Origin: Paucibacter sp. Y2R2-4
Lineage (GTDB): Bacteria; Pseudomonadota; Gammaproteobacteria; Burkholderiales; Burkholderiaceae_C
Assembly (NCBI RefSeq): GCF_025717535.1
Contig: NZ_JAJIRO010000003.1
Coordinates: forward strand, 496,001 to 560,000
DNA length: 64,000 nt
Reading direction: 5' to 3'
Shown: positions 3,013 through 43,932 of the stretch, piece after piece
Numbering within the stretch: the first letter of the stretch is position 1
Layout of the letters: every line of letters begins with the position of its first letter
Notes under the pieces: model-generated
The model's database searches: none
Told to the model about the DNA's origin: nothing
Seen by the model: the letters and a program-made list of their open reading frames with translations, nothing else
Translations under genes and position numbers: made by a program

Positions 3013-3069
3013 GATCCATGATTTCGTGGCCGCGGTGAGTTCGCGGCCCAAGATTCCCTCGAGGCCGCC

Positions 3070-8359: not shown

Positions 8360-8369
8360 GATGTGGCGC

Positions 8370-27843: not shown

Positions 27844-29820
27844 ATGTTCCTTCGCCTTTTCGGACTGCTGACATTTATGCTGCTTAGTGGGTGTGGGGAT
27901 TCGCTAACCAGGATGGTGAATGCGAAGTTTCCTCCCATCACCGTAGAGGAACAGCGGCAAGCAGCAATCACCTCCACCGCTCAAGCACTGGCAAAGCTCG
28001 CCACTCCAAACATTGGAGTTGGAGTAGCAATGTCGGATGCGACAGCCGCGCTGCTTACGGAAGAGCTCAAAAAGCAGGGTGTGGCGAAGCTCAGCCTTCG
28101 TGGTGATGAGCAGTTGCTTAGGGTGTCGATCGATTTCGCTCGGCAGTTCTCCAAGGACGATGCCGGAGACAATCAGGCAGCAATCGCGGCGCTAGGCGCG
28201 CTGAAACCGCGCATTGAAGGAACCGTCACTGCCTATGCGGGGCTCACTGGAGCGATAGCTCAGGCTGGCGCATCCGGTCCAGAACTTGAGTTGCGGCTGC
28301 TACCAGCATTTTCGTCCGTGCATGTCGAGAAAATCGAGCTTGCAGACAAGGTAGACGTCACTTTGGTTGGGTCCGCTATCGTCGCGGTCCTAAACCAGTT
28401 TAAGGACAACATCTCGGGAGAACTAAGCCGCTCCCCTCTGACACGGGTCACGTTGCCCGCACTCTCTGACAAGCCGTTTAACCCCAGCGACACGTTTTCT
28501 ATCGACGACGCCGGCGGCAAGGCCACCATCGAAGTGGTGTCAAAGCCGATAGTGATTCCGTTCAAGGTGGACGGCATCGCTTGGCTGGTCGCAAAGGATC
28601 ACCTTACGTCGTTAGTACAGCTATCGCCGGTCAGCGTTGCAGCAGCCGTGCAGGCCGTCGACGTTAAACCTACCTTCAGCGGCATCCAAGATCGAGTAAA
28701 CGAAATTGTCGAGCAGGTGTTCGAAGTTCCTACCCCAGAGGGAACGTGGGTAGCCGTGAAGAGAGACGTGGTCGCCTTGGCGATGAACAGCGTTACTTCT
28801 CAGGCGCAGCTTTGCGTCAAGGCATCTGTGTCGGTGCCTAACCAACACACCAGCACGAAGATAAAGTTGCCGAACGGACTTGGAATTAACTGCTCTTCCG
28901 ACCGTGTGTGCAAGTCCGACAAGCAGTGCAGTTTCAGTGCCAACCGAGACACTCGGGACTGCAGTGCCTGCCTGCTGCGAGCTCCGAGAGTTTGCGCATT
29001 CGGCGGCTGCGTCGGCGGACAGTGCACCCTCAGAGGGAATGACCCATTCTGTGAGGCTGCCAAAGCGGCCCAGAACGTCATCTACGACACAGACGCCAAC
29101 TTGCGCAAGGCGGACTGCGACCGGTTGAGGGAGACAGAGAACGCCACCTGTGAGGTGGAAAAGGCTGGCGAGAAGTTGCTGTGCGAAGCGAAGAAGGAGG
29201 CGCTCAATCGCCTCGCGGCCACTGGGAACTTTGCCAATCTCGATGTCGATTCGCGGTTCGCGACCGACAACCTTCAGGTCTGCCTTCGCGACTTCGACAT
29301 GTCGCCGGCCCTTGACCGAGTTCAGTTCGCACTCGAAGTGCAAGGTGAGGCGAAGGCCGATGTTGATGTCAAGTTCGTTCCATTGGACATCGTCGGACAC
29401 CTGACCTGTCAGTTCCCATGGTCGCAGTCTAAGAACTTCACCGCGTCACTACGTGAGTCCCGTGTGGGCATCGCGTCGAACGTCCAACTCTCAACAGCGA
29501 ACGGCGATGCACGGGCAAACTTTGCCGTGGACAACATTGACGTCAAGGCTAAGCTCAAGCCGGGCCCCACGGAGTTCCTGGTCAGCAGTCCCGAACTTCT
29601 ACTCAAGTGTCCGGTGCTCGCCGGCATTGCCCCCACCGTTGTAGCGTTGACGCCTTTCGTGCCGCAGTTGAAAGGAGAGGTCGACTACACGCTCAAGGAC
29701 CAGAAGGCATCAGTGAAGTTGGCCATCCCGAAGCAAACTGTCGGCGGCGTCGCAATGGTCGTCAACGTAGTGCCGAACAAGGAAACGATTGTGGCAACGG
29801 CGTCGCGTGCGAGGCCTTGA
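27844..29820 (+). CDS. Large exported lipoprotein with Cys-rich middle
   Basis: This 658-residue protein has a lipoprotein signal: LFGLLTFMLLSGC, with the lipid-accepting Cys near residue 17. A ribosome site (AAGGAG) sits 8 bases before ATG 27844. Residues 30-340 alternate short strands and helices (for example VSKPIVIPFKVDGIAWLVAK). A Cys-rich stretch, about 350-440, has at least ten Cys in patterns such as CSSDRVCKSDKQCSF and CSACLLRAPRVCAFGGC, probably disulphide-bonded. The C-terminal 200 residues are again strand-rich, with repeated lipid-transfer-like sheets (SNVQLSTANGDARANFAVD). I do not recognise a family. It is probably an outer-membrane or periplasmic lipoprotein. Confidence 0.65.
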   Translation: MFLRLFGLLTFMLLSGCGDSLTRMVNAKFPPITVEEQRQAAITSTAQALAKLATPNIGVGVAMSDATAALLTEELKKQGVAKLSLRGDEQLLRVSIDFARQFSKDDAGDNQAAIAALGALKPRIEGTVTAYAGLTGAIAQAGASGPELELRLLPAFSSVHVEKIELADKVDVTLVGSAIVAVLNQFKDNISGELSRSPLTRVTLPALSDKPFNPSDTFSIDDAGGKATIEVVSKPIVIPFKVDGIAWLVAKDHLTSLVQLSPVSVAAAVQAVDVKPTFSGIQDRVNEIVEQVFEVPTPEGTWVAVKRDVVALAMNSVTSQAQLCVKASVSVPNQHTSTKIKLPNGLGINCSSDRVCKSDKQCSFSANRDTRDCSACLLRAPRVCAFGGCVGGQCTLRGNDPFCEAAKAAQNVIYDTDANLRKADCDRLRETENATCEVEKAGEKLLCEAKKEALNRLAATGNFANLDVDSRFATDNLQVCLRDFDMSPALDRVQFALEVQGEAKADVDVKFVPLDIVGHLTCQFPWSQSKNFTASLRESRVGIASNVQLSTANGDARANFAVDNIDVKAKLKPGPTEFLVSSPELLLKCPVLAGIAPTVVALTPFVPQLKGEVDYTLKDQKASVKLAIPKQTVGGVAMVVNVVPNKETIVATASRARP

Positions 29821-30261
29821 ACTATGCACTGCGTGCGAATGCGTCAATTTGACACCGTGGGGCGTCGCGTGCATGCCTCGTCTCGCTAGGATTGTGGACG
29901 TCAGCTATCCGGCTTGGCGTCGACCGACGGCTTCTGGCCAACAGCGTGGGGCGACCCAAGCGCCGGACAGCCTTCATGCAGCGAACGGGAGCCCACACTG
30001 TCAGCGCTGCAAAAGCGCACGATGGTGGGCCGCCCACTCGATGGGAGACCATCATATGATCTGCAGCCAACATCCTTTCGCGCGAGCCGTGGAACCAGGG
30101 TGACATGCAACCCGCGATCCGTACCACGGCAATAGAGATGAATCCAACCCAGCGGATTTCTCAAATAGACTGGCACGGGTTCTGGGGGCAGGTCAAAGAC
30201 TAATCCGAACTTACGTCAGCTCCCTGGCCGTCTCACGACCACCCGGTCGCAGCCAAGTTGC
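29821..30261. other. Intergenic region without supported features
   Basis: The lipoprotein gene and the exported-protein gene at 30262 converge here. I see no gene, tRNA, attC or terminator I can support. Overlapping short frames on both strands look accidental. Confidence 0.4.
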
Positions 30262-31329
30262 TCAGCTCGGCTTGAGCAGCCGATACATAAAGACGCAGTC
30301 CCAGTAGCTGGAGTGCTCCCAGGCCTTGTCGGCGTCCTCCCTCTCCCACTGCCACTGGTGCAGCGGGGGCGTGGGAAGGCGGTCGGGCGCCGGGCAGCGC
30401 GCAAGGACCTGATCCTTCACCGCCTGAGTCGACCCCTCGGCCAACCACCGGAAGAACGCGTTATTCGGGTCGCCCATGGTCTTGAACGTCGCGCAGCTCC
30501 GTTCCTCCCCAGAGACGAGCAGCTTGGCCGCCACCTCCAGATCTGGGTGGGTCGACCCCATCATGCGTTCGAGCAGGATCCCGACCGCCACCAGGTGTTG
30601 AGAGAAGCCAACCCGGTTGCACTCGGCGCCGAGCTTCACAAAGCCCGCGGTCTTGCCTGACCAGGACCCTAGGTAGGCGCGCAAGCTGCCGCTGGGCAGC
30701 GGCTGCATCCCAGCCTTCTCCTGGAGCCAGCTCACGGTCGCCGAAAGCGCCGCGGCATCACCAGGCCGCACGGTGCACTCGAAGTTCTGCTTGTCGCCAG
30801 GCTTGGGTGGGTCAGTGCAGAACCTCGGCACCGGGGCCCTGACCAGACAGGCGCCGCCGAGCTCGACCCAGCAAGGCACGTGATCGTGAAGCCACATGAG
30901 CCAGCGTAACGCCGAGTCGATGTCTTTGGTCTTCAAGAGGTAGAGCTGGACGCCCATTGCCATGTCAGGGGAGAAGCTGGCGCCACCCCGGTCGTTGCCG
31001 TTCAAGCGGATCCGCGGCGAGCGGTACCACTGGCCCGAGTTTCTATCGAGCGCTTCCTTTACGCCCAGGCATCCCAGAGGCTCACCAACGGCGCACAGGA
31101 GGCCGTTAAAAAGGGTCATGTCGCCGTCGTCGCACGGCTGAGCCGCCTCTCCGGTCGGCCGGCTGGGGAACCTCACGCCGCCAGGCGTGGCTTCGCAGAG
31201 GAAGGCATTCGGGCGCCAGAGTCCGGTGTAGCGGTCATCCAGTTCATCGGCCGCTGCCAAGTCAGGGAAGAAGCCCCCAAGGGCGAAGGCGAGCATGGCT
31301 CGCCGCAGTGTGCTGCAGTACCAGGTCAC
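30262..31329 (-). CDS. Exported hypothetical protein
   Basis: This 355-residue protein starts at a GTG (31329) with an excellent ribosome site (GGGAGG six bases before). The N-terminus is a signal peptide: basic (TLRRA), hydrophobic (MLAFALGGFFPDL), then AAADE, a likely cleavage site. The mature part has several Cys pairs (FLCEATPGG; AQPCDDGD; LLCAVGEPLGCLG; RFCTDP; FECTV) and many Trp residues, consistent with a disulphide-stabilised periplasmic protein. No catalytic motif or known domain is evident. Confidence 0.6.
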   Translation of the reverse strand: MTWYCSTLRRAMLAFALGGFFPDLAAADELDDRYTGLWRPNAFLCEATPGGVRFPSRPTGEAAQPCDDGDMTLFNGLLCAVGEPLGCLGVKEALDRNSGQWYRSPRIRLNGNDRGGASFSPDMAMGVQLYLLKTKDIDSALRWLMWLHDHVPCWVELGGACLVRAPVPRFCTDPPKPGDKQNFECTVRPGDAAALSATVSWLQEKAGMQPLPSGSLRAYLGSWSGKTAGFVKLGAECNRVGFSQHLVAVGILLERMMGSTHPDLEVAAKLLVSGEERSCATFKTMGDPNNAFFRWLAEGSTQAVKDQVLARCPAPDRLPTPPLHQWQWEREDADKAWEHSSYWDCVFMYRLLKPS

Positions 31330-31429
31330 GAGCGTCCTCCCGAGGCATTGATGCAGTAGGATTGGAGTGCGTAGAACGCGGGCTTCACATCCATAGAAAT
31401 GAGGACGATGGCAGCGTTAGAGCGTGTGA

Positions 31430-31680
31430 AACTCGTACTTTGAACGCTGGCGCCTGCGTACTTGCTCTTCCAGCTGTACCAGGTCGCTGCGCTGGTTCCG
31501 TGCTTGCAGCACACCTCGGCAACCTGCAACCTGCAACCGGCAATACAGCCTCGCCTTCCTTCAGGATCTCCACGATCTGGCTCTCGCTGAACTTGATCTT
31601 CCTTATCTGGGCCTTTTCCTCCTCGGGTCGCTTTCTCCAGTTATAGGCTGTCTACTTATGGGGAGCGCTTACGGGATGTC
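31430..31680 (-). pseudogene. IS3-family transposase orfA remnant and IS end
   Basis: On the minus strand the frame begins with basic residues and reaches IRKIKFSESQIVEILKEGEA, then after a frame change VAEVCCKHGTSAATWYSWKS with KYAG, the helix-turn-helix protein (OrfA) of IS3-family elements. The shift coincides with three copies of the 7-mer GGTTGCA, a likely replication-slippage duplication. The frame then runs into unrelated sequence; orfB with the DDE domain is absent. Just upstream, TGTCTACTTATGGGGAGCGC is in the position of the IS terminal repeat. The element is dead. Confidence 0.75.
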
Positions 31681-31711
31681 TATTGCTATTGCAGCGCAGC
31701 GTGAGCATTCG

Positions 31712-32836
31712 CTATGGCTTTGCAATGGTGATGTGAAGAAGGTCCTTGAGCGCGTTGAACTTATCCAGTGAGATTGACTTCTGCATGTACCCTACCGGCT
31801 CTAGCTTGGCGCTGATCGTAAGGCCGGCGGGGTCGCCGTTATTGGAATCTTGAACGACTCTCACTGAGGTGACACCTGTAGGCACATACATCGGGATATC
31901 GCAGTAATAGTCCCCGGCCTGTGGGCCATCTTGGCCGCTAACGTTGGCGTTGCAGCGTGGCTGATGCTTCTCGTCAACATACACGTTGATCGAAGCGCTC
32001 GGGCCGGGTTTGGTGCCATTCATGCTCATGCGCCCGGATACGGTCAATATCGCCTGGCCAGGTCCTCCCATGTTCAAGCTGACGGTTCCTGAGACTGGCA
32101 CCTTGATTGACTTGCTATCCGTCAGTCGAGGTGGGGGTGTTGGGACTGTCTTGGAATAGTTGATCGTGCTGACTAGCATGTCGGCAGCTGGGTCAACGTT
32201 GAATGCGATGATGGAACTCTGCGCGCCCTGCATCAAACTGCACACCGCCGTTGTCGTTGCGGTTAGGTTTGTTCCGCCGTCACACACGATCTTTTTTCCC
32301 GGCGATGCAGTCGTTACCTTCAATTTCTTCGGCGCCGATGGCGGTGCGTTGTAGACCATCGTGATGACAAAATCATCGGTCGGCGGATACTCCCCGGTGA
32401 TGTAAGCGGAAAAGCCGCGTTGCCCAGTGCAGGCTTTGACTATCTCGGCCGCATTTGTCGAGACCCTCTTTGTGTACTCGTCTAGCTTGACGCTCGTACT
32501 CGTGCTTGAGTAATAGTCAGAGCAGAACGATTGTTTGAAGCTACTGAAGTCCGTTGAAGACCCGGTGAAACCGATTGCCACTGGCAAATTCGGAATTTTG
32601 AAGTCCAGACCAATCGCCCGGGCTTGCTCCACAGTGGAGGCTGTAGACGAGCACAGGTGTTCAACCGCGATACTGACCTGCGAATAGCGCGACTTCGACG
32701 AATTCACTTCATACAAGCCGTCCTGAAAGAGGGACTTGCAAACTTCTGCCGGAATCTGAGCAACAACAGGCGAAAGCCAAAGCAGCAGGGGCGCGATCAG
32801 GAGGTTGCACTTCATGTGGTGTCGCAGCAGTTGCAT
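31712..32836 (-). CDS. Exported hypothetical protein
   Basis: This 374-residue protein begins with a signal peptide (MKCNLLIAPLLLWLSPVVA, after a short leader; a first ATG at 32836 and a second at 32815 are both possible). The mature part has six or more Cys and two apparent beta-sandwich segments: ITMVYNAPPSAPKKLKVTTA, and VSLNMGGPGQAILTVSGRMS followed by VYVDEKHQPRC. Its style (Ser/Thr-rich, immunoglobulin-like strands) suggests an exported binding protein. I do not recognise a family. The next gene lies several hundred bases away, so it is probably single. Confidence 0.55.
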   Translation of the reverse strand: MQLLRHHMKCNLLIAPLLLWLSPVVAQIPAEVCKSLFQDGLYEVNSSKSRYSQVSIAVEHLCSSTASTVEQARAIGLDFKIPNLPVAIGFTGSSTDFSSFKQSFCSDYYSSTSTSVKLDEYTKRVSTNAAEIVKACTGQRGFSAYITGEYPPTDDFVITMVYNAPPSAPKKLKVTTASPGKKIVCDGGTNLTATTTAVCSLMQGAQSSIIAFNVDPAADMLVSTINYSKTVPTPPPRLTDSKSIKVPVSGTVSLNMGGPGQAILTVSGRMSMNGTKPGPSASINVYVDEKHQPRCNANVSGQDGPQAGDYYCDIPMYVPTGVTSVRVVQDSNNGDPAGLTISAKLEPVGYMQKSISLDKFNALKDLLHITIAKP

Positions 32837-33544
32837 AAGGTCTCCGCTCGGAAAATGTTGACCGGGTGACTTGCACCTAGACGGTGAGCTCCACCGGATT
32901 GCTAAACCAGTTTCTGACTTTCCCAGAGATCATGTACATAAGCTTGCCTTTGAGCAACAGCAGGCGTCACTAGCTTTGTTGATGCAATGGAGGGCACATG
33001 GGGCTACTACTATTTGGCTGCCGGATCGTTCACGGTCAACCCCAAGCCGTGATTTGGGTGGGACTAAAGGGGCGTGCAGGAGTCGCCAGCCCAGCAAGTC
33101 GAAGAGGTCCGTCACGCCGTGGCCTTGAGCTGGAAAGCTGCCAGAAGACCGGGTGAATGGCGCGGTGACCCTTGGAGTATTGCGGCGCACGTGGTCGACA
33201 TCTGATCTACTGCGCTTCCCCAAGAGGGCCGTCAGGCCGCGCTTACCTACGTGGCCATCGACCGGTCATTGAAGCCGGGTGGTCTGCGGATGAGTCAACG
33301 CCTGCTGCGCGCGCACCACCGTGAAGTCAGGTTGGAAACGCGAACGACTCCAATCCCTTCTGTGCTGGCCACGCCCTTGGATCTGGAATATCGGCTTTGG
33401 GCACGGAGCTGCCGAAGGCCCGCTGGCTTGAATTTCGATGGGCAGGTCAGTGCCCGTAGTGGACATTCGCGTCAGAACACCACTAGGAAGTTGAGACCCG
33501 AAAGCTGAGGTTGCCCGCCTGCGTTGCAGCGCCCGAATGCTGTC
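32837..33544. other. Gene-free stretch left of the cassette array
   Basis: No gene is supportable. A 97-codon minus-strand frame (32930-33223) and others have no family resemblance, and composition is mixed. Decayed DNA between the exported-protein gene and the last integron cassette is the simplest view. Confidence 0.4.
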
Positions 33545-33591
33545 GTTCAACGCACTAAGTTAACGGACGCCGCAGGCGGTCCGTGTTTGAC
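33545..33591 (-). repeat. Possible degenerate attC
   Basis: GTTCAAC (33545) and GTTTGAC (33585) flank a hairpin (GGACGCCG...GGTCC). The position is right for the last cassette's attC, but the site is short and the second core box deviates. Confidence 0.35.
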
Positions 33592-33646
33592 TGATAGTCT
33601 ATTAAGCACTCTTTCGCCTCCAGACAAGAGAGAAGTGCGAGTTCGG

Positions 33647-33949
33647 TCACGCTGACCCAAGCCAAGCGACGCACGCACAGCCTAAGAAAAAAAGGCTTGC
33701 CACGTTGAGGACACTTGCGATTCCTTTCGCTTTTGGCAGTTGCAAACTCAATCCCTTGCGCTCGACTCGCTCAAAAAGTGCGTGCGGCTGAATTGCAATT
33801 GCAAAACCTGACAAACCGCAGCCAAGGTTGAAAAGCATCGAATGCAAAATATTTCGATCGACTCCAAAAGCGGCGCGGTAAGTAAATGCTAGACCGACGC
33901 CTGCAAAGACTGCAGACCAAACCAATTCTTTGGTGACAACGAGTTTCAT
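33647..33949 (-). CDS. Cassette-encoded small membrane protein
   Basis: This is the last cassette of the array: 100 residues from ATG 33949 (MKLVVTKELVW). Three or four hydrophobic segments (LVWSAVFAGVGLAFTYRAAF; SMLFNLGCGLSGFAIAI; LNVASLFFLGCACVAWLG) suggest an integral membrane protein of unknown function. The next site, attC 33953-34063, lies directly upstream of its start, as usual for cassette genes. Confidence 0.6.
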   Translation of the reverse strand: MKLVVTKELVWSAVFAGVGLAFTYRAAFGVDRNILHSMLFNLGCGLSGFAIAIQPHALFERVERKGLSLQLPKAKGIASVLNVASLFFLGCACVAWLGSA

Positions 33950-33952
33950 GTT

Positions 33953-34063
33953 GGGCAACGTTTGAGCTAACCGGCTCGCGACGGCAGGACGCCGTAGGGC
34001 CAGAATGAAATGAGGCCCGTAGGTGGCATGCCGTCACGGGTCCAGTTGAGTGAGAGGTTAGGT
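33953..34063 (-). repeat. attC site
   Basis: Core boxes GGGCAAC (33953) and GTTAGGT (34057) enclose a stem with GACGGCA and TGCCGTC. It overlaps the stop of the gene at 34058. Confidence 0.75.
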
Positions 34064-34462
34064 CGCACCGCGCGTGCCCCGCTTGCCGAACAGCCTGGCA
34101 ATGAGCGGCAGCTGCAAGAAGTAGGAGGCGAAGAACGCCAGAAGGACGAGGTACCAGTGCCCCATGTGAAAGGCAGCTTGGTCAAATCGAATGGGCAGGT
34201 TTGTTGCCTCAACCAATACAGCAACTTCACATGCCGAGACAAGGGCAGCCACGAACCGCGCGAAAGTTGTGGGCCGCACCAGCTCCGCTCTTGCGCTCCT
34301 GGCTTTTCGGCCTTTCAATCGTAGGAGGAACCCAACGGCGAGTGCAGCCAGGACGATGCCGATGATGAACTTTCCCAGCAATACAGACACTGTTGCGCCA
34401 GATGCAGCGAAAGCTAAACCAAAGGCTTCAGCCACGAGTTCGAACTTTGATGCGACGTTCAT
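34058..34462 (-). CDS. Cassette-encoded membrane protein
   Basis: This 134-residue protein starts at ATG 34462 with a good ribosome site (AAGGG). It has hydrophobic stretches VLLGKFIIGIVLAALAVGFL and WYLVLLAFFASYFLQLPLIA, with a further weak one between (VAALVSACEVAVLVEA). There is no known domain. It is probably an inner-membrane protein. Confidence 0.6.
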   Translation of the reverse strand: MNVASKFELVAEAFGLAFAASGATVSVLLGKFIIGIVLAALAVGFLLRLKGRKARSARAELVRPTTFARFVAALVSACEVAVLVEATNLPIRFDQAAFHMGHWYLVLLAFFASYFLQLPLIARLFGKRGTRGAT

Positions 34463-34549
34463 CCGTACCCTTGCTGCAAAGGGGACGCGATCGCTTGGGG
34501 TGGAATGCAACTTCAAGGCAGAGGGCAATTGGAAGTGGTCTTATGTGCG

Positions 34550-34606
34550 GCTCAACGTGAAATCTCAGCGGGCGGCGAAGCCGGCCGCTGCAGTGAAGGG
34601 TTGAAC
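34550..34606 (-). repeat. attC site (57 bp)
   Basis: GCTCAAC (34550) and GTTGAAC (34600) flank CAGCGGGCGGCGAAGCCGG. It is closely related to the attC at 35135, with the same length and core sequence. Confidence 0.85.
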
Positions 34607-35125
34607 CTCGTTTGCCTCAAGTGCCGAACGAGATACTTGCGAGATTTTGGTCGCCCCGAGCACTAGATCAATAGCCTGATAGAACTCCGCGAACAAAAAA
34701 TCCTTTGGCTTTCTCGTGGCCTCGGAGGCTCGCTGGATCGCAGCAAGCGCTGCAGTCCGATACGCACGGAGTTGCTTCGTAGGCGTGAGCATCTGAACAT
34801 CCAACCAATTGATCTGCCCGACGCTACGAAGTTCGCGATGCTTGGGCATGTACGAGGTGCGGCCATCCGGCCCCGCAAAAGCTACTCCAGTTCCCCAAGA
34901 CTCGAAGTCGGCAACTTCCAGCACAAGCATGAAGATTTCAATCGATGCTCCAAAGGACCGCCCGGCGAGTCGTTGATTTAAGTAGGCGTCGATGCCAGGT
35001 GTAAAAAGCCGCCAACGTCCAGGATTTGATTTCCAATGTTCGAGCGGCCAGGCATTGCCATTCGAATGCTGGCTGCCGAGGTGCAACACTTCGACGCCAG
35101 TCTTCAGGAACGTATAGAAACGCAT
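34565..35125 (-). CDS. Cassette-encoded hypothetical protein
   Basis: This 186-residue protein starts at ATG 35125 (MRFYTFLKTGVEVL). It has an N-terminal region with many aromatic residues (RWRLFTPGIDAYL), a strand-rich centre (IEIFMLVLEVADFESWG) and a helical C-terminus (RAYRTAALAAIQRASEA). It is soluble, without signal peptide, with no family I recognise. It reads into its own attC, as many cassette genes do. Confidence 0.55.
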   Translation of the reverse strand: MRFYTFLKTGVEVLHLGSQHSNGNAWPLEHWKSNPGRWRLFTPGIDAYLNQRLAGRSFGASIEIFMLVLEVADFESWGTGVAFAGPDGRTSYMPKHRELRSVGQINWLDVQMLTPTKQLRAYRTAALAAIQRASEATRKPKDFLFAEFYQAIDLVLGATKISQVSRSALEANEVQPFTAAAGFAAR

Positions 35126-35134
35126 CGCTGCGAG

Positions 35135-35191
35135 GTTCAACGTTCAAGGTCAGCGGGCGGCGAAGCCGTCTGCTGCAGCGGTGGGTTGGAC
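35135..35191 (-). repeat. attC site (57 bp)
   Basis: GTTCAAC (35135) and GTTGGAC (35185) flank CAGCGGGCGGCGAAGCCG; it is nearly the same as the site at 34550, so the two cassettes share an attC type. Confidence 0.87.
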
Positions 35192-35192
35192 C

Positions 35193-35555
35193 TCAGCATA
35201 CGAAACCAGGGGCTAGCGCCTGCTTCTTCAGATCGATGCCGATCCAGCACTCATGCGCCCCCTTTGGGTGCTTGGCGCACATGATCTCTCCGGATACTTT
35301 CGTCATCGTTCCGTCGTCAAAGCACTCGTCTCGCTTTTGCTTGGACGATATTGCGTTGAAAAGATCCCTGGCCGCGCTGCCGGTCAAGTACAGGCGAAGA
35401 AGTGAATCTTTCGCGTCGCCTGGGGCCGGATCGGTCAAGCTGGATGTGCCGATCGAATAGGTACCAGTCAGCTTTGCGGGAGCTTGATGATCTGGCGCGG
35501 CGCGGCTTGAACTGATCAGCGCCAAGGCAATGATGAGGGGCGTGGGCGATCGCAT
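35193..35555 (-). CDS. Cassette-encoded exported protein
   Basis: This 120-residue protein has a signal-like start (MRSPTPLIIALALISSSRAA) and a mature domain with three Cys (DECFDDG; IMCAKHP; HECWIGID) and a fourth at the C-terminus (GFVC). It is probably periplasmic and disulphide-bonded. No family is recognised. Confidence 0.6.
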   Translation of the reverse strand: MRSPTPLIIALALISSSRAAPDHQAPAKLTGTYSIGTSSLTDPAPGDAKDSLLRLYLTGSAARDLFNAISSKQKRDECFDDGTMTKVSGEIMCAKHPKGAHECWIGIDLKKQALAPGFVC

Positions 35556-35613
35556 GGGCAATCCGACTTGTCAGGTTTTGCAGGCTGGAAATCGCGATGT
35601 CGCGGAGTCTGAG

Positions 35614-35739
35614 GTCCAACGTTCGAGCTAAGCGGGGGCCGACGGTGTGACGACTGGCCCGCGAGGCCGATGATATGAGTAGCGGCCTCGCGGGCCAGGC
35701 GGCGCGCCGTTGCCTCTCGGCTTGAGCGAGGGGGTGGGC
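35614..35739 (-). repeat. attC site (126 bp)
   Basis: GTCCAAC (35614) and the variant box GGTGGGC (35733) flank a long palindrome with GGCCTCGCGGGCCAG and CTGGCCCGCGAGGCC arms. Confidence 0.8.
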
Positions 35740-35740
35740 C

Positions 35741-36232
35741 TCACTCGGACGCCGCTGCGAGAACGGCCCACAGTCTCTCGCCGAGATGCTGACGAACCTG
35801 CTCCGCCGCGACAAACTCTTCAGAGACCAGCGCCGTGAACATTATGTAGTGTGCCCGCATGGCCTGAACACCGAATACTTCATGAACTCTATAGCCGTCT
35901 CTAATTTGTACTTTGGTGTACTCGACGAAGGCTGTGTAATTCGTTCCAGGAACTTCTAACAGATCACGTTTGTTCCGCTTCGCGAGCTCTTCTACAAAAC
36001 CCTTTGCGTCGAAGGGCGGTGCCCCGGCTGGACGTGTACCTGTAGGCCCGAGTTTCAACTGATACGCGACACCTGGCGCTGGAACGACGACGACCCGGCC
36101 CAGCTGATCAATTTTGTGTGTTGCGGGAGCCTTGTCGATCTTCAGCGTTACTGTAGATCCAGGGAAAGCAACCTCCGACGCATTGCCAGCAATCGAGAAG
36201 GAAAGGAGCAAGGCGGCGGCGAGGAGTCGCAT
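35741..36232 (-). CDS. Cassette-encoded exported protein
   Basis: This 163-residue protein starts with a signal peptide (MRLLAAALLLSFSIAGNAS). The mature part has two strand-rich halves (VTLKIDKAPATHKIDQLGRV; NYTAFVEYTKVQIRDGYRV) and a helical end (FVAAEQVRQHLGERLWAVLA). There is no known domain. Its stop lies right beside the attC, the compact arrangement seen across this array. Confidence 0.62.
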   Translation of the reverse strand: MRLLAAALLLSFSIAGNASEVAFPGSTVTLKIDKAPATHKIDQLGRVVVVPAPGVAYQLKLGPTGTRPAGAPPFDAKGFVEELAKRNKRDLLEVPGTNYTAFVEYTKVQIRDGYRVHEVFGVQAMRAHYIMFTALVSEEFVAAEQVRQHLGERLWAVLAAASE

Positions 36233-36239
36233 TTGTGAG

Positions 36240-36341
36240 GCCTAACGTTTGACATGAGGGGCGGACGACGGCGGCACCAGCCTCGGCAAGCAGCACAAAC
36301 CGTGCTCGCCGTTGGCCGTCCCCTCGATGGAATGGTTAGGC
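36240..36341 (-). repeat. attC site (102 bp)
   Basis: Exact core boxes GCCTAAC (36240) and GTTAGGC (36335) flank a long imperfect palindrome (GAGGGGCGGACGACGGCG; CGCCGTTGGCCGTCCCCTC). Confidence 0.92.
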
Positions 36342-36767
36342 ATTGGCGGCCTCGGTTGGCGACTGGATTCGTTCGACCTTTATCCTGGGTGAAATGAACG
36401 GGATGCCATTTGACCGAAGTGTAAGTAGCCAATGATCGTCTTTGTAGAAAGTGACCTTGGCGGTCTTGTTGTCGAGCCACTCCAAGCTGTCGAGGTTGAA
36501 CGAACGATAGGGAACGAAGAACTGCCTGCAAGACAAGGTTCTCATTGAGTTTGAGTCAATGAGAACGAAGTTCGTCGTCTCTTCGAAGGGGCAGTCGCAA
36601 TCTGTAACCAAGAGGTACCCATAGTCCGTTCTGAACTGATGGAGAAGGGTGTATCCCGGCACAGTGGCGTTGATCGGCTCACCGTTCACAAAGAGTCGAG
36701 TCCTTAGCGGCCACTTTTCGTAAGGGCCTTCATGGCGTTCTAGAGAAAAGATGCAGATCTTCTCCAT
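36336..36767 (-). CDS. Cassette-encoded hypothetical protein
   Basis: This 143-residue protein is predicted soluble, rich in beta strands and aromatic residues (GYLLVTDCDCPFEETTNFVL; QFFVPYRSFNLDSLEWLD; DDHWLLTLRSNGIPFISP). Three or four Cys are present. It resembles the small single-domain proteins often found in cassettes. No family is recognised. Confidence 0.62.
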   Translation of the reverse strand: MEKICIFSLERHEGPYEKWPLRTRLFVNGEPINATVPGYTLLHQFRTDYGYLLVTDCDCPFEETTNFVLIDSNSMRTLSCRQFFVPYRSFNLDSLEWLDNKTAKVTFYKDDHWLLTLRSNGIPFISPRIKVERIQSPTEAANA

Positions 36768-36772
36768 GCGAT

Positions 36773-36901
36773 GCCTAACGTTTGAGCTGAGCCGGGTATG
36801 ACGGCAGGACGCCTTGGCCCGGACTGAGAGAATGAAGCGCGTACCTCAGGCCGGGCCAAGGTGGAATGCCGTTGGGCCTCGGCTCCAGCGAGGTGTTAGG
36901 C
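36773..36901 (-). repeat. attC site (129 bp)
   Basis: GCCTAAC (36773) and GTTAGGC (36895), with arms GACGGCAGGACGCCTTGGCC and GGCCAAGGTGGAATGCCGT. Confidence 0.93.
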
Positions 36902-37267
36902 ATCGTTGCTTCGAATTAAGTACACAACCAGAGCAGACGCGAACGCAACCGCAAGACTGATCATGGCGAGCAAGGCCACTGGATCACCGCCGGAGACAAT
37001 GAATGCACTGCCAATCAAGAATCCAATTCCGGGTATCACGAATAGGGCACCAGCGAGAACAGGGAACGCAACTAGTGCTATGAAGAAGGCTTTCATTGCA
37101 CCATCAAGTCGACTATCAGGAACGGTTTGATCCTTCCAAACTTCTGCCTCACTCTCTGACTCTGCTACCGGCCTCCAGCCCTTCGGATCAGTGAACTGCG
37201 CATCGCAAGATGGGCAACTGCTGCTTCGAATGTTAAGCGTCAATCCACAGTTAGGGCACTTCGCCAT
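36896..37267 (-). CDS. Cassette-encoded zinc-ribbon membrane protein
   Basis: This 123-residue protein opens with a zinc ribbon, CPNCGLTLNIRSSSCPSCD (two CxxC pairs), followed by a charged linker and two hydrophobic segments (AFFIALVAFPVLAGALFVIP with GIGFLIGSAFIV; ALLAMISLAVAFASALVVYL). Small zinc-ribbon/two-helix proteins like this are frequent in environmental cassettes. The function is unknown; the N-terminal ribbon is probably cytoplasmic. Confidence 0.65.
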   Translation of the reverse strand: MAKCPNCGLTLNIRSSSCPSCDAQFTDPKGWRPVAESESEAEVWKDQTVPDSRLDGAMKAFFIALVAFPVLAGALFVIPGIGFLIGSAFIVSGGDPVALLAMISLAVAFASALVVYLIRSNDA

Positions 37268-37275
37268 AGTTCGAT

Positions 37276-37325
37276 GCCTAACGTGTTGTAGGGAGACAGC
37301 CGTGCTGGAAGTCCCAGTTCGAGTA
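37276..37325 (-). repeat. Partial attC and gene-less cassette remnant
   Basis: GCCTAACGTGTTGTAGGG at 37276 matches the right-edge element at 39870 almost exactly, but no second core box is recognisable. The 120 bases up to the next attC at 37396 contain no gene, so this looks like a decayed or empty cassette. Confidence 0.5.
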
Positions 37326-37395
37326 GATCAAACGATGCAGTTGACTATCAGTGAGACTAGAAAGAGTTTCGGACATGACCAATGAGCTTTCAGAG

Positions 37396-37506
37396 GCCTA
37401 ACTCTCGATTTGAAGGGTCGGAGCCAGTTTGCCGCGCGGAGCTGAGAATAAGCCGGCAGCAAGGTGCGGCCAGTTGGTGGTGGTCCACTCGAGGGACTGG
37501 TTGGAC
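37396..37506 (-). repeat. attC site (111 bp)
   Basis: GCCTAAC (37396) and GTTGGAC (37500); arms TCTCGATTTGAAGGGTCGG and GGTGGTCCACTCGAGGGA are imperfectly paired. Confidence 0.85.
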
Positions 37507-37577
37507 CCCTCCGGCAGTTGAGGGCCAGTGGATTGCAGGTAAGAGCAATGCGTCGAGCTTGTACGGAGCACCATAGG

Positions 37578-37721
37578 CTAGCCAAACACGCCTGATACCG
37601 CGAGAAGCGCAACACCAAGCTGAACACTGACAGCCGCGCCTCGAACGATCTTGCTTTTCGACGCGACGGCAATTGCCCCAGGAAGGATGATTCCGGCGAC
37701 AAGAATGTGTATTGATTTCAT
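37578..37721 (-). CDS. Cassette-encoded 47-residue membrane peptide
   Basis: This cassette is too short for a larger gene. The one plausible frame starts at ATG 37721 and reads MKSIHILVAGIILPGAIAVA, a basic SKSKIVRG loop, and a second hydrophobic helix (AAVSVQLGVALLAVSGVFG) before TAG: a two-helix hairpin. The ribosome site is weak. Small hydrophobic products are common in cassettes, but this one could be non-coding. Confidence 0.45.
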   Translation of the reverse strand: MKSIHILVAGIILPGAIAVASKSKIVRGAAVSVQLGVALLAVSGVFG

Positions 37722-37792
37722 TTCACGCGTATTGACGATAACTGGACGGTCGCATTTCAGGATATCTGCGAATCACAAAACGGTCTTCTTGG

Positions 37793-37926
37793 GCCCCAAC
37801 GTTCGAGGTAATCGGGCGCCACCGGTGGGAGGCCAGTGCCCGGCCGGCAAAAATGTACTGCGTACCACCACCGGGCGGGTGCTGGTAACACCGCCGTTGG
37901 TGTTCCTGTTGACCGAGGGGTTAGGC
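37793..37926 (-). repeat. attC site (134 bp)
   Basis: The box CCCCAAC (ending 37800) and GTTAGGC (37920) flank a long palindrome around ACCACCGGGCGGGTGCTGGT. Confidence 0.82.
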
Positions 37927-37927
37927 C

Positions 37928-38422
37928 TCACCGTGCAAGCCTGACCACACAGGCTCCGATGGCTAGGAGCGCCAACGACACAGGAGCGAGAAGGTGGACG
38001 GCAAGCACCATTCGGAGGTGGTGCCGCGTGATCAGGTTCACGATGCGCAAAGTGCGGCTATGCAGGGTGAACTCAGCCTGGGCGATCAAGTTGGATTCCT
38101 GCGTTTCGGCTCGCGCTCGTTGCGTGTGCCAATGCTTGTGGGAGGCGCGTTTTGCTAGATGCCAAGTGGCAAAGTCCGAGGCGAGGCACAGACAGTACGA
38201 GAGAAGCAGGAAAGTACAGCTTGATGCGATAAGAAGGATGAGCGCCCACTGATTGGCCGAAGTCAGCTTGATTCCCAATGCCTGAATTTCACCAGGGACA
38301 AACCCGCCCCAGACGACGGCGAGTGCAAGAAAGGAGGTCACAACGAGACTTCGACCTTGTTTCCTGGTGATTTCGCGAAGCGGGTCGGACGCTGCGACTT
38401 GGGATGGCGTGGAGATTGACAT
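37928..38422 (-). CDS. Cassette-encoded membrane protein
   Basis: This 164-residue protein has about four hydrophobic segments (SLVVTSFLALAVVWGGFV; QWALILLIASSCTFLLLSY; LRIVNLITRHHLRMVLAVHL; APVSLALLAIGACVVRL), with a charged His/Arg/Lys-rich loop between the second and third. No known family. Confidence 0.6.
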   Translation of the reverse strand: MSISTPSQVAASDPLREITRKQGRSLVVTSFLALAVVWGGFVPGEIQALGIKLTSANQWALILLIASSCTFLLLSYCLCLASDFATWHLAKRASHKHWHTQRARAETQESNLIAQAEFTLHSRTLRIVNLITRHHLRMVLAVHLLAPVSLALLAIGACVVRLAR

Positions 38423-38433
38423 GCGAACGTGAG

Positions 38434-38502
38434 TCCTAGCGTTTGAGATGAGAGACGGCGCCAGGCTTGCCGGGTGACGACCTCTCGATTGAAGGGTTAG
38501 CC
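38434..38502 (-). repeat. attC site (69 bp)
   Basis: The boxes TCCTAGC (38434) and GTTAGCC (38496) both vary from consensus; the short stem is GAGACGGCGCCAGG/CCGGGTGACGACCTCTC. Confidence 0.72.
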
Positions 38503-39003
38503 GTCGCGGCTCCCCAAACCAGGGAAGTGCTCTATGTGTTCAAGATCAAGAGCCTCCGCGCGAAAAGTGACGAACGCTTGTAGCAACTTTGTTTCACATC
38601 TTTCCGCCGATTCAGCAATTTTTGATAGATCTTCAAGCCTCAAGTGTTTGTCGTCGACGTTTGAAGCTATAGCCTCGAGGACCTGAGTATCAAGATCACC
38701 TTGTAGGAATACTAAGCACAGCGGATTGTGGGCTACAAGGTTTCTATACTTTGACAGTGATCGGGCCTCCGAGACCGCTGCACTGAACGCCTTCTTTGTG
38801 GATTCGGATGCTTCTCGGGATTCGCAAAGATCAGCGATGAGGGCAAGGCGGGCAGAAAGAGATGCCTTGGCAAAGTGCTTGTGAATCTTCTCTCCTGCCC
38901 ACTCGCGAATGCAGTCATGAGAGGTTCGTTCAATGCTGCCGAAGGCAATGAACAACCTACCAATCAGCGGAATCCAGGGGGTTGAATCTACGAGCTTGAC
39001 CAT
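38497..39003 (-). CDS. Cassette-encoded HEPN-like protein
   Basis: This 168-residue all-helical protein contains KYRNLVAHNP, which fits the Rx4-6H catalytic motif (RNxxxH) of HEPN RNases near residue 93, preceded by the long helices usual in this fold (LSARLALIADLCESREASES). HEPN proteins are the toxins of many toxin-antitoxin pairs (often with MNT antitoxins) and RNase parts of defence systems. No MNT-type partner is visible in this cassette, so it may act alone or with a chromosomal partner. Confidence 0.6.
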   Translation of the reverse strand: MVKLVDSTPWIPLIGRLFIAFGSIERTSHDCIREWAGEKIHKHFAKASLSARLALIADLCESREASESTKKAFSAAVSEARSLSKYRNLVAHNPLCLVFLQGDLDTQVLEAIASNVDDKHLRLEDLSKIAESAERCETKLLQAFVTFRAEALDLEHIEHFPGLGSRDG

Positions 39004-39022
39004 ACGGGAAGTAGATTGCGAC

Positions 39023-39139
39023 GCCTAACGCCAAGGTTAATCAGCGCCGGAGCGCGATGCGCGTAGGGCACCAACATTGGCCATGAAAATGGCGAAGCCA
39101 TGGCCAGTGCTGGCGTCCACTTTGAACCGACAGTTAGGC
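39023..39139 (-). repeat. attC site (117 bp)
   Basis: Consensus core boxes GCCTAAC (39023) and GTTAGGC (39133) flank a palindrome around GGCCATGAAAATGGCGAAGC. It is the attC of the first cassette. Confidence 0.92.
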
Positions 39140-39145
39140 ATTGGT

Positions 39146-39820
39146 TTAAGAACGCACTCGTGCCATGAACTCAGTGACACCGGCAAGCATTTGAGCTACT
39201 TGCTCTGCTGAGTAAAGTTCGTACTTCCCATGCGCGGCATTGTTTCGGAGGTCGAGCCAAGCCGTAATAAGCTTTTGATCCAGCTTCGTGTACGCATCCG
39301 CCTTTGCTAATTCAGCGTTTAATCTGTCAGCCTTGCGAGGAATAAATTTTCCTTCTTTTTCTTCCTCGGTAGACACGGAGTGCTTCTGGCATAGCTGTCT
39401 TAAGTGCTCTTCTAATACTGATCCACACATGACGGCCGCAGGATCCTTGTAGCCAGACTCAAGCAGGTGTTCAGCCATCTCGAGAAAATCCGCAAAGACT
39501 TCCGCAGACACCAAGCTTTTGATGGAAAGCAGCCAGCCGCCTGCAATTTCGTCCGCGATTGCTTCAAGTATTGCGACTCCTGCCTCAGCATCACTTTTGT
39601 AGTGGCGCAGGGTGCTTTTATGGAACTGCTCGTAGTGTGGGTGCTCTCGACCGTATGTGCGATCAATAAATGACAACGCAGCCGTTCTGAACCCTGTCAT
39701 GGGTGCATCTTGTACGTAGTTGACGTTGTACTGGCCTCCGGTGCTGTATGCCGTAGCAAGTACAGCCTTGCCTGTCGCAATCAATTGCTGCGCGCGTTTA
39801 TGTAGTTCTTCTGTAAGCAA
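39146..39820 (-). CDS. First-cassette HEPN-like protein
   Basis: This 224-residue helical protein carries LRNNAAHGKYE near residue 195, again an RNxxxH HEPN motif, and an upstream segment (ESGYKDPAAVMCGSVLEEHL) like the helical core of DUF4145/abortive-infection-type HEPN proteins. The start is a TTG at 39820 preceded by AAGGGAAG. As the cassette nearest the vanished attI it would be the best expressed in a working integron. Confidence 0.6.
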   Translation of the reverse strand: MLTEELHKRAQQLIATGKAVLATAYSTGGQYNVNYVQDAPMTGFRTAALSFIDRTYGREHPHYEQFHKSTLRHYKSDAEAGVAILEAIADEIAGGWLLSIKSLVSAEVFADFLEMAEHLLESGYKDPAAVMCGSVLEEHLRQLCQKHSVSTEEEKEGKFIPRKADRLNAELAKADAYTKLDQKLITAWLDLRNNAAHGKYELYSAEQVAQMLAGVTEFMARVRS

Positions 39821-39869
39821 GATGCTTCCCTTCGTAACATCTCGAGTAACGGTACGGTTGTTTGACTCG

Positions 39870-39912
39870 GCCTAACGTGTTGTAGGGCGACAGCCCGTGC
39901 GCCCTAACGTCG
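39870..39912 (-). repeat. Truncated attC or attI-like element at the array edge
   Basis: GCCTAACGTGTTGTAGGGCG at 39870, then a GGGCG/CGCCC hairpin, closes the array at its upstream end. The first 18 bases match the element at 37276. No second core box is seen, so a cassette or the attI/intI end was probably deleted here. Confidence 0.5.
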
Positions 39913-40313
39913 GATCCATGCCGTGTCTCAAGTGCTTGATGCATTTGTACTATTCCTCCCCATACTGCATTTCCATACAGTACCAAATTTCCAACCAAAC
40001 CCGGCAGCTTGTTACTTTTTCTTCTGTGCCTTGCCGGAGCTCAGGCGACCACATGTTGCCACGCTCGAGCGAGGCTTTGCCACCCCGCAAAACCCTGCAT
40101 CCGCAGACCTCACCTGCACTGCCGGCGCTGCGTTCAGTCACCCTGCAACAAAGCGGACCTCAACGAATGTCTGCAATTGGACGATCCCCCAGGTTCAAGA
40201 AGCCAATACGGATGACTGCAACGGGCACATTGTTGACCTTGGTGGCCTTGCCACTTTCCAGTTCCCGTTGCGGGGACATGTTCAAAGTCTCAAAAGTGTC
40301 CAGTAGGCGTAAA
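39877..40313. other. Region where an integron integrase would be expected
   Basis: Frames on both strands (for example 39897-40355) lack any tyrosine-recombinase feature: no R-HxxR-Y box is seen. The sequence is AT-rich then GC-rich and looks like broken coding DNA. The LexA box of umuD ends it. Confidence 0.45.
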
Positions 40314-40329
40314 CTGTATGTATGTACAG
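40314..40329 (+). promoter_or_regulatory. LexA box (SOS operator) of umuDC
   Basis: CTGTATGTATGTACAG fits the CTG-N10-CAG LexA consensus with an alternating AT/GT core, directly ahead of umuD. Repair polymerase genes are SOS-regulated, so DNA damage should induce this operon. Confidence 0.85.
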
Positions 40330-40330
40330 T

Positions 40331-40786
40331 ATGTTTCAAGCGCAGTCCTCGATAGAAGGCCCACACGCACCAATTGCCGTTGTCGCCGTAGATGGCGCCT
40401 GGGTTAAGGGTCTCCTCGGCTCAGTCCAAGCCGGCTTTCCTTCGCCCGCAGAGGACCATGGTGTCGAGCGCATTGACCTCAACAAAGAGCTCATCAAGCA
40501 CCCTCAGGCCACGTTCATGATGCGTGTGCGCGGGGCATCCATGCGTGAAGCAGGTATCGATGATGGTGACGTGGTGCTCGTAGACCGTGCTGTCAAACCG
40601 TCACATGGGCATGTCGTTGTCGCCGTTGTAGATGGCGAGTTCACTGTTAAGCGGCTCTGGAAGCGTGGGATCAACCTGAAGCTACAGGCAGCCAATCCGA
40701 CTTACCCGGACATTCTCCCTCGTGACGGTCAGACCGTCGAAGTTTGGGGTGTCGTCACGACGGCCATCAAATCGATGCGTGTCTAA
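40331..40786 (+). CDS. umuD: UmuD-like SOS protease/accessory protein
   Basis: This 151-residue protein has the self-cleavage site Ala34-Gly35 ([10 protein letters not shown]), catalytic Ser70 in RGASMREAG and Lys107 in DGEFTVKRL, all matching UmuD. RecA-stimulated cleavage would yield the active UmuD' that binds UmuC to form DNA polymerase V. ATG 40331 directly follows the LexA box, so the mRNA leader is extremely short or absent; an ATG at 40322 lies inside the box. It is 20 bases upstream of umuC and cotranscribed. Copies of umuDC on plasmids and islands are common. Confidence 0.92.
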
Positions 40787-40806
40787 GATCGGCGTGCGGA
40801 AAGCCT

Positions 40807-42180
40807 ATGTTTGCGCTTGTCGACGGCAACAATTTCTATGTCTCATGCGAACGGGTTTTCAGGCCGTCCCTTCTTGGCCGGCCCGTCATCGTGCTTTCCA
40901 ACAATGATGGCTGCGCCATTGCGCGCTCAAACGAGGCCAAGGCCCTTGGCGTGCGAATGGGCCACCCATGGTTTCAATGCAAGGATTTCGAACGCGACCA
41001 TGGCCTAGTGGCTCTGAGTGCAAATTTTGCGCTCTATGGAGACATGTCTGACAGGATGATGGTTGTTGCGTCGAGCTACGCTCCTCGGCAAGAGATTTAC
41101 TCGATCGACGAGTCATTTCTTGACTTCACGGGAGTTCAGGGTGATTTGGTCGTTATGTGTCGGAACATGCGAGCCCAAATATTGCAGTGGGTTGGTATCC
41201 CCTGTGGCGTTGGCATCGGACCGACAAAGACTCTGGCCAAGCTTGCCAACTACATCGCCAAAACCACCGAACGCAAGCCTGGCAGCTACCCGGAGAAGCT
41301 GGGGCAGGTTTGCCATCTCGGTGCCATGTCGCAGGACGAATTGCATGCCGTTTTTGCTGCAACGGATGTCGGGGAAGTCTGGGGCGTTGGCAAGCGCATC
41401 GGGGCACAACTCCGAGAGGGGGGCGTGTGCACAGTTCTTGATTTGGTGCGGCTTGATGCCTCAACGGCCAGGCGGCATTTCTCGGTGATCCTGGAAAAGA
41501 CCGTCCGCGAACTTAAGGGTACCCCGTGTATTGAGGTCGATGACCAGCCTGCGCCGAAACAGCAAATCATGGTGAGCCGCTCCTTCGGCCATGCGGTGAC
41601 GAAGGGTCGTGACCTTGCCACCGCCATCACTGAATACACAAGTCGCGCGGCGGAGAAACTGCGAGGGCAAGGTAGTGCAGCGGGGGCCATCGTTGTGTTC
41701 ATTCGAACAAGCCCGTTTCGGAAGGATGACCCGCAGTACAGCGCGACCGTGACCGTGCCCTTGCTTAGACCGACTGCTGATAGCGCGCTACTCACCACTT
41801 CGGCGATTGCAGGTCTTCGAGGCATCTACAAGGCGGGTTTCAAATACGCCAAAGCAGGGGTGATGCTGGTCGATTTGCAGTCAACTGACGTGCAGCAGGG
41901 TGAGCTGGATTTTGATGCTATCGAGACCCCGCCAGGGCATGACCGCGAAGGGGGGCAGGGCGTGTCTGGGTCGGCAGTTTCTTGCCATCAAAGCGGACAG
42001 CGAGGCAGCGCGAAATTGATGTCAGCGATGGATGCGGTCAATAGACGGTACGGGCGAGGCTCGTTGAAACTTGCTGGCGCCGGATTGGAAATGGACCGTA
42101 AAGGGTGGACCATGAAACAGGAGCGGCGCACGCCCCAGTACACGACTTGTTGGGGTGATATCGCGGTTGTGAGGGCTTAG
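40807..42180 (+). CDS. umuC: UmuC, catalytic subunit of DNA polymerase V
   Basis: This 457-residue Y-family polymerase has the palm motif [17 protein letters not shown] at the N-terminus, [19 protein letters not shown], the catalytic [10 protein letters not shown] near residue 100, and the helix-hairpin-helix [11 protein letters not shown]. The C-terminus has the typical [12 protein letters not shown] and ending [15 protein letters not shown]. It performs error-prone bypass synthesis. I took ATG 40807 (MFALVDG); the frame is open back to 40744 inside umuD. It is full length, with a slightly longer linker before the C-terminus than in E. coli (422 residues). Confidence 0.95.
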
Positions 42181-43637: not shown

Positions 43638-43788
43638 CTCTAGGTCACCCGTTACACGTTCCGACAGCTACTAGTCCGTGTGCTCTTACGGCATTGGGCT
43701 CCGGGGCGAAGTCCGACAGGTTTGAAGGCATTTCCGGGTCAACCGCCCTCAGAGGGAGCCGCTCGACGGGTTCTATTTCTGACCAACA
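43638..43788. other. Right terminus of the island
   Basis: Read inward from comM the sequence begins TGTTGGTCAGAAATAGAACC, and a related stretch (GTTGACCCGGAAATGCC) follows about 45 bases further in. No gene is present. The five bases ACCGC straddle the junction (43788-43792). Confidence 0.45.
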
Positions 43789-43932
43789 CCGCTCGCGCGA
43801 TTCCTTGACTTCGGTGTCGGCCAAACCGACCAAGACGAAAGACGGCAAACCGTTGGCCAGATGAACTTCGACGCTGACCGGCGCGGCGGCCAGCCCGTCC
43901 AGGGCGCGGCTATGAACAATGGCCAGTGACAT
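43789..43932 (-). pseudogene. comM: comM 5' fragment
   Basis: These first 48 codons of ComM are intact: MSLAIVHSRALDGLAAAPV, then LANGLPSFVLVGLAD and EVKESRER, the standard N-terminus of the Mg-chelatase-like family. Directly after the codon for Arg48 homology stops (a Val is usual) and island DNA follows. With the C-terminal piece at 6693-7169 it accounts for about 205 of some 505 residues, so the gene cannot make a working helicase. Its promoter lies between here and the porin gene. Confidence 0.93.

Follow-up and report, generated by a model that had tools for sequence, protein, structure and literature searches.

Array attC sites and the head of the array

Here we describe array D, a run of integron cassettes in a 64,000-nucleotide stretch of Paucibacter sp. 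Y2R2-4 DNA (hereafter the window; bases 496001-560000 of contig C3, in a genome of 5.13 Mb and 9 contigs). The minus strand of this array reads as an alternation of small genes and palindromic sites with GCCTAAC-like and GTTAGGC-like ends, and the head of the array carries an attI site, a LexA-like box and a stub of the 5' end of intI, the integron integrase gene. We searched for the attC sites of the cassettes with a covariance model, R1, trained on 19 of the 29 attC in two other arrays of the same genome (A and B) and on none from the window; across these training sites the 16 pairs were formed in 88% of cells and the covariation score lay above 500/500 shuffles, a descriptive figure given that the sites are related. 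R1 recognized nine attC in the window (E 1.5e-17 to 7.3e-6), all of them minus-strand sites in the interval 33953-38502, that is within 4.6 kb of 64 kb, and the rows that followed had E=0.23 and 0.49.

Read from the head of the array, and all on the minus strand, the nine sites are attC 2 (38434..38502, 69 bp, E=4.9e-6), attC 3 (37794..37926, 133 bp, E=5.2e-7), attC 4 (37396..37506, 111 bp, E=1.5e-17, of a type common in arrays A-C and E), and further sites at 36773..36901 (129 bp, E=6.8e-11, fold z -6.1), 36240..36341 (102 bp, E=3.1e-17), 35614..35739 (126 bp, E=7.3e-6), 35135..35191 (57 bp, E=1.9e-6), 34550..34606 (57 bp, E=1.5e-7) and 33953..34063 (111 bp, E=2.1e-12). Core boxes added two minus-strand sites that R1 did not match: attC 1 (39023..39139, 117 bp), with 7/7 complementary cores and a fold equalled by only 6/200 shuffles, and a weak last attC-like site (33546..33647) with poor cores and a fold at chance level (z -0.9). 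The attC of array D measure 57-133 bp. A strict core search of the 64 kb minus strand (RYYYAAC...GTTRRRY pairs, 45-160 bp spacing, at least 5/7 complementarity) returned eight rows, seven of which, representing six distinct sites, fell within 34.5-39.2 kb. The count of about eleven attC given in an earlier note made from the sequence is thus borne out, and the covariance search that it proposed found far more than two sites.

We also considered whether these are chance palindromes, or whether intI is missing only through a break in the assembly. When folded singly as DNA, five of the eleven sites (s2, s3, s4, s9 and s12) were unremarkable against shuffles, with z above -1, and arrays A and B are truly broken at intI by the assembly. 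The case for the array D attC therefore rests on the covariance model and the shared cores. Nine R1 matches at E<1e-5, crowded on one strand, speak against chance; array D also lies about 340 kb inside an 876 kb contig with continuous flanks, which led us to reject an assembly artefact for this array. We give this explanation next to no weight.

The attI site lies at 39870..39911 (minus strand), with a 27-base core at 39896-39870, and was assigned by homology only: its core is within 2-5 mismatches of sites upstream of intI in seven of 24 loci from other genomes, and 8 mismatches from a class 1 attI (L155). Beyond it, at 39963..39982, is the box TACTGTATGGAAATGCAGTA, which we take to be LexA-like, against the known consensus, from its position and sequence; a near-identical box precedes the intI of genome G004. 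The intI stub follows at 40053..40145 on the plus strand, as expected for intI; its 31 codons correspond to residues 1-31 of the G004 IntI (BLASTP E=4e-8, one-protein search) and are cut just before the conserved LLDQLRERIRYLHYS. From within the stub to attI, the DNA is 71% identical over 255 bp to the intI-attI region of G004. A TIGR02249 search of the genome gave no row of contig C3 inside the window, so that, as the earlier note held, no integrase gene is present there beyond this stub. The place where intI would have run on is occupied by a umuD/umuC-like pair (40322-42180, plus strand), which adjoins the integron remnant and has its own LexA-like box at 40331-40312.

Because attI, the leader and the 31-codon stub head the array, we read array D as the remains of an integron without its intI. 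Specifically, it is very probably (we would put this near 88%) a fossil of a once-working IntI1-related integron that lost most of intI and kept attI and about eleven cassettes. An excerpt of PMC8618304 sets out three proposed routes to clusters of attC sites lacking an integrase (CALINs), namely intI loss, off-target insertion and rearrangement. Under the second of these, an integrase acting from elsewhere would have inserted the cassettes one by one at a secondary site, and no integron would ever have stood here. Integrase genes do occur elsewhere in this genome; however, a real attI, a leader and the first 31 intI codons, in the right order and orientation, stand at the head of the array, and we rejected this very improbable origin on the strength of the attI and the stub. 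The label CALIN, used in the earlier note, is correct by the usual definition of an attC cluster without a neighbouring integrase and is also incomplete, as attI and the intI stub had been overlooked.

In the history that we favour, recombination between attI and attC, carried out by an IntI that was transcribed divergently beside a LexA-type box, would have brought circular cassettes in at attI. A later loss would have removed most of intI and spared 31 codons, the regulatory region, attI and about eleven cassettes. We infer this past IntI activity at D and the order of the events, as well as the joining of split contigs described below. The same intI-deleted platform is present at a second locus of the genome (array C). 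Since arrays A and B, assigned to integrase fragments at contig ends, share attC families with D, array D could be served in trans, its sites meanwhile decaying.

Sister arrays, core pairing and possible use in trans

A scan of the whole genome with R1 gave 96 matches at E<=0.05 in ten stretches, and removal of 25 antisense matches to the same palindromes left 71 attC. These comprise array A (C1 end, 11), array B (C3 end, 18), array C (C3:348-365 kb, 26), array D (9), cluster E (C1:746 kb, 2), cluster F (C1:219 kb, 3) and two singles. In arrays A and B, attI lies 212 bases from a contig end, and contigs C2 and C6 each end in an open fragment of an integron integrase gene, its last third (TIGR02249 positions 205-315, under the full-length cut-off); the two fragments are 98% identical over 456 bp. 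In five relatives (G001, G003, G008, G009 and G013) the C6 flank and the array A flank adjoin without an integron, from which it follows that C6 joins C1 and that array A was gained here or lost there. We infer by elimination that array B pairs with contig C2. Besides array D, the genome thus appears to contain two integrons that have an integrase gene, and the search for intI elsewhere in the genome, suggested in the earlier note, was fruitful: two contigs end in fragments of an integron integrase gene, and arrays headed by attI carry attC of the same types.

The leader of array C matches that of array D at 90% over 363 bp, the intI truncation junction included, and its intI stub is also frameshifted. 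Array E has an attI-like end 8 mismatches away. Two small attC clusters (L091 2985-3025 and L092, on C1) have the GTGCCC repeat described below in neither case, and one carries an attI-like end resembling that of G003. Within array D itself, a second attI core (37276..37304, minus strand) is the same as the array B attI at 29/29 bp and adjoins a cut cassette frame (37305..37376, minus strand, start MSETLSSLTDSQLHRLIYSNWDFQ) that is fused to it.

The first bases of an integrated cassette derive from the core before it and are expected to pair with the R'' that closes the same cassette. When consecutive sites were compared with shuffled partners, arrays A, B and C each gave 0/10,000 shuffles as high, and array D gave p=0.06 on 9 pairs. 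Counting the attI-adjacent cassettes, core pairing was perfect in 11/11 cassettes of A, 12/18 of B, 15/26 of C and 5/11 of D, the last being three of the nine pairs plus the two that adjoin attI cores. Perfect pairing differed between A and B together (23/29) and C and D together (20/37) at p=0.04, and between A and D at p=0.012, both uncorrected.

These arrays also bear on whether the orphan platform is still a working, non-autonomous integron that is used in trans, with C and D having exchanged their cassettes for others after intI was lost. C and D come from one intI-deleted ancestor, yet their cassette genes have no DNA in common; the attI core of D is intact, the cassettes beside both of its attI cores pair perfectly, and its attC families also occur in A and B. 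Against this, pairing has decayed in D and in the attI-proximal part of C. The array D cassette genes share no DNA with arrays A, B, C, E or F at E<=1e-5, a single protein match at 31% identity being the only likeness, and recombination between platforms could also explain the common leader. As the decay in array C is greatest nearest attI, with its four attI-nearest cassettes among the most decayed, it speaks against recent use of that orphan attI in trans. Such continuing use is therefore unlikely in our judgement.

The reading of array D as a fossil integron has its own difficulties. The decay contrast is modest: B and C differ little, and D taken by itself does not differ significantly from its shuffles (p=0.06). 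The pairing count for D includes two sites that R1 missed, whereas the counts for A-C cover R1-found sites only, and further sites may have been overlooked in array C, which has gaps of up to 2.1 kb. The assembly lacks about 0.7 kb of the intI of array A and as much of that of array B, so that neither gene can be called intact, and the assignment of array B to contig C2 rests on elimination. Finally, 17 of the 24 loci from other genomes have no attI core within 5 mismatches, some of them holding little upstream DNA.

Platform ends, inverted repeats and relatives

Closer inspection of the platform ends revealed short inverted repeats. On the minus strand, the outer end of D is formed by a left terminal repeat (GTGCCC..., 40209..40228, 6 mismatches to a 20-base repeat), where homology to array C begins, and the other end by a right terminal repeat (...CGGGCAC, 33450..33469, 3 mismatches) inside a conserved array end (33450..33552) that matches the ends of A and C at 92-93% identity over 103-104 bp and was not found in B. 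By left ends, A goes with B and C with D, whereas the right end of D matches A and C; since left and right ends group the platforms differently, ends have been reassorted between platforms. A stretch on contig C5 at about 100.3 kb (L229 16238-16365) is 75% identical over 130 bp to the conserved array end and may possibly be an older, eroded integron end; no convincing attC lay within about 16 kb of it (best E=0.16).

Given these ends, we questioned whether the four platforms might be transposable units with GTGCCC...GGGCAC inverted repeats as their boundaries. Allowing up to 6 mismatches, the repeat anchored on GTGCCC is found, in imperfect form, at all eight ends of A-D, and in 82 kb of other loci of the same genome it was found once, where array C has its own left end; under so loose a threshold, 0.6 per 64 kb would be expected from a first-order random model. 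Homology between platforms stops at GTGCCC on the left or GGGCAC on the right, as seen in A/B and C/D. Independently, Roseateles koreensis and Paucibacter KBW04 agree at 73 of the 78 positions that follow intI up to GGGCAC and diverge beyond it, and KBW04 holds a 2.9 kb unit of intI and three attC with the repeat at each end. G013 and Paucibacter sp. DJ2R-2 carry the variant GCTTTGAGCAG at that place after intI. The absence of array A from its site in five relatives also fits a mobile unit.

Several observations stand against such units. The consensus was picked after some ends had already been seen, and the ends have been reassorted as described. Inspection of the A-D ends by eye showed no target duplication, empty sites being available for A only, with about 280 bp of extra flanking DNA. 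The repeat was not found around clusters E and F or the two single attC, and it occurs within 700 bp of intI in only 3/99 other loci, from two genomes (L047 and L142 being the same in sequence), seven rows of that scan containing less than 700 bp. Genome-wide at <=3 mismatches it occurs in eight places, namely the right end of D, one 45 bp beside that end, and six on C5, where repeat pairs lie around GGDEF, chemotaxis-receptor, catalase and similar genes (10 proteins scanned). Another inverted pair (GTGCCCAAAGCCGA.., about 30 bp, at 27149 and 33385) flanks window positions 27149-33404, a 6.3 kb segment lying 45 bp from the integron whose three large proteins have no Pfam match. Spacers of 45 bp like the one beside D also occur at C5:86.6 kb and C3:368.1 kb. 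No transposase was present among the proteins scanned, including the 10 around the C5 repeats, although the genome as a whole was not searched for one. A transposon with its own transposase is thus unsupported, the C5 repeat pairs surrounding ordinary genes. Collectively, the repeats hint that the platforms moved as units and are no proof of it, and we regard transposable units bounded by them as doubtful. More speculative still is a broader picture in which entire chromosomal integrons of this Roseateles/Paucibacter lineage move inside the genome as repeat-bounded units, integrase-deleted derivatives multiply as non-autonomous integrons, and their attI sites are still served in trans by the integrase of sister copies.

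Searches for empty sites of the other platforms gave little. The right flank of D (1,850 bp) was found in 0/17 relatives and that of B was matched in 1/17 (67%), while the LysR-side flank of C aligned at full length in five relatives, the other flank not lying beside it within 1.5 kb.

Among relatives of the integrase, for which we considered the best 80 of at least 567 matches, the best named matches to the G013 IntI were Paucibacter sp. DJ2R-2 (92%), Rhizobacter sp. Root1238 (90%) and Roseateles koreensis (88%), and among the matches listed many loci of clinical and other bacteria stood at 76%. These relatives place the bacterium near the Roseateles/Paucibacter group. Its integrase is related to IntI1 (about 76%). 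The class 1 attI end is carried by 22 loci. Thirteen of 18 genus genomes, the present one being included in the 18, have an integrase above the TIGR02249 cut-off; the present genome is not among the 13 because its integrase copies are cut. All 18 have attC at E<=1e-4 among up to 150 candidates considered per genome; the present genome has the most rows among the matches listed, at least 65, antisense rows included. In G001, one array adjoins a full intI and another adjoins an intI fragment with a stop, a parallel case to that described here.

Cassette genes, neighbouring features and known integrons

The cassette genes of array D all lie on the minus strand. Cassette 1 (39146..39820) encodes a 224 aa protein with a weak HEPN resemblance (PF18735 E=0.0016, under the Pfam cut-off) and, against solved structures, no meaningful match (best E=0.36). 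Cassette 2 (38497..39003) is an open reading frame of 168 aa with an Rx4H motif seen by eye only, without Pfam support. Transmembrane-like stretches mark the products of cassette 3 (37928..38422, 164 aa), the small cassette 4 frame (37578..37721, 47 aa) and the genes at 34058..34528 (156 aa) and 33647..33958 (103 aa) as membrane-like; the 123 aa protein encoded at 36896..37267 combines membrane-like stretches with a zinc-ribbon-like N-terminus (under the Pfam cut-off). By eye, the genes at 35741..36232 (163 aa) and 35193..35561 (122 aa) have signal-peptide-like starts, and the proteins encoded at 36336..36767 (143 aa) and 34565..35140 (191 aa) gave no Pfam match above the cut-off. Where the earlier note spoke of mostly unknown membrane or exported products, 5/11 frames are transmembrane-like and two more look signal-peptide-like by eye. 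Ten array D cassette proteins gave no Pfam hit above the cut-off and no match to PADLOC models at E<=0.01.

Elsewhere in the window, an N-terminal comM fragment (43645-44031, minus strand; PF13541 positions 1-34 of 121) was found, its other half not being located, and comM looks to have been cut by an island. CBASS-like defence genes lie at 7595-11291 (minus strand), encoding a bacterial HORMA protein, a SMODS nucleotidyltransferase, a TRIP13-like AAA ATPase and a DUF6602 protein. Also on the minus strand are a Sll1717 family P-loop ATPase with a weak match to an anti-phage protein model (24902-26485) and a large TPR protein just under the FxSxx-COOH system cut-off, beside a DUF900 hydrolase (14413-19280). 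An SAH riboswitch (2898-3016, plus strand, 44.9 bits) is the sole window match to Rfam at the gathering threshold.

As in other CALINs, array D is a chromosomal attC cluster of about the usual size with no nearby integrase; it differs in keeping attI, a LexA-like box and the 5' stub of intI, which make its origin by intI loss visible. It also resembles sedentary chromosomal integrons with an IntI1-related integrase, which arrays A and B appear to be, in its class 1-like attI layout, its 57-133 bp attC and its mostly unknown cassette proteins. In contrast to these, D has lost intI, and this genome holds several platforms instead of one. Gillings reportedly described, in 2009, integrons flanked by repeats like those of miniature inverted-repeat transposable elements. 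The platforms described here likewise lie between short inverted terminal repeats, whereas these are imperfect repeats of about 20 bp at chromosomal sites with no target duplication seen, and their movement is putative.

Published work, as far as the excerpts cited extend, offers several points of reference. A chromosomal Paucibacter IntI, 72% identical to IntI1, has been noted as a novel class and not as class 1 (PMC7784347). CALINs are already known, as are the origins proposed for them and their probably degraded condition (PMC8618304, PMC9024848), they can be mobilized in trans (PMC12444791), and in Shewanella they occur beside intI genes (PMC9229058). Truncated intI and CALINs beside intact integrons in one genus, as seen here, are also described in Xanthomonas; there, however, intI sits at one ancestral locus (ilvD), whereas here platforms with related ends occupy several loci of a single genome (PMC12444791). 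Another discussion concerns the ancestor of class 1 and its capture from the chromosome of a betaproteobacterium (PMC5460862). Among the literature matches listed, with most subscription papers outside their coverage, none described a CALIN that retains both attI and a stub of intI.

Collectively, these observations show platforms without intI in the same genome as arrays that we assign to integrase genes, and the truncation junction and attI survive together with a decay contrast. Because both kinds of platform share this genome, the intI-loss route can be read directly and the service of an orphan attI in trans can be tested. The common ends of the platforms, in turn, make one ask how chromosomal relatives of class 1 integrons, the group that gave rise to the clinical class 1 integrons, move from place to place.

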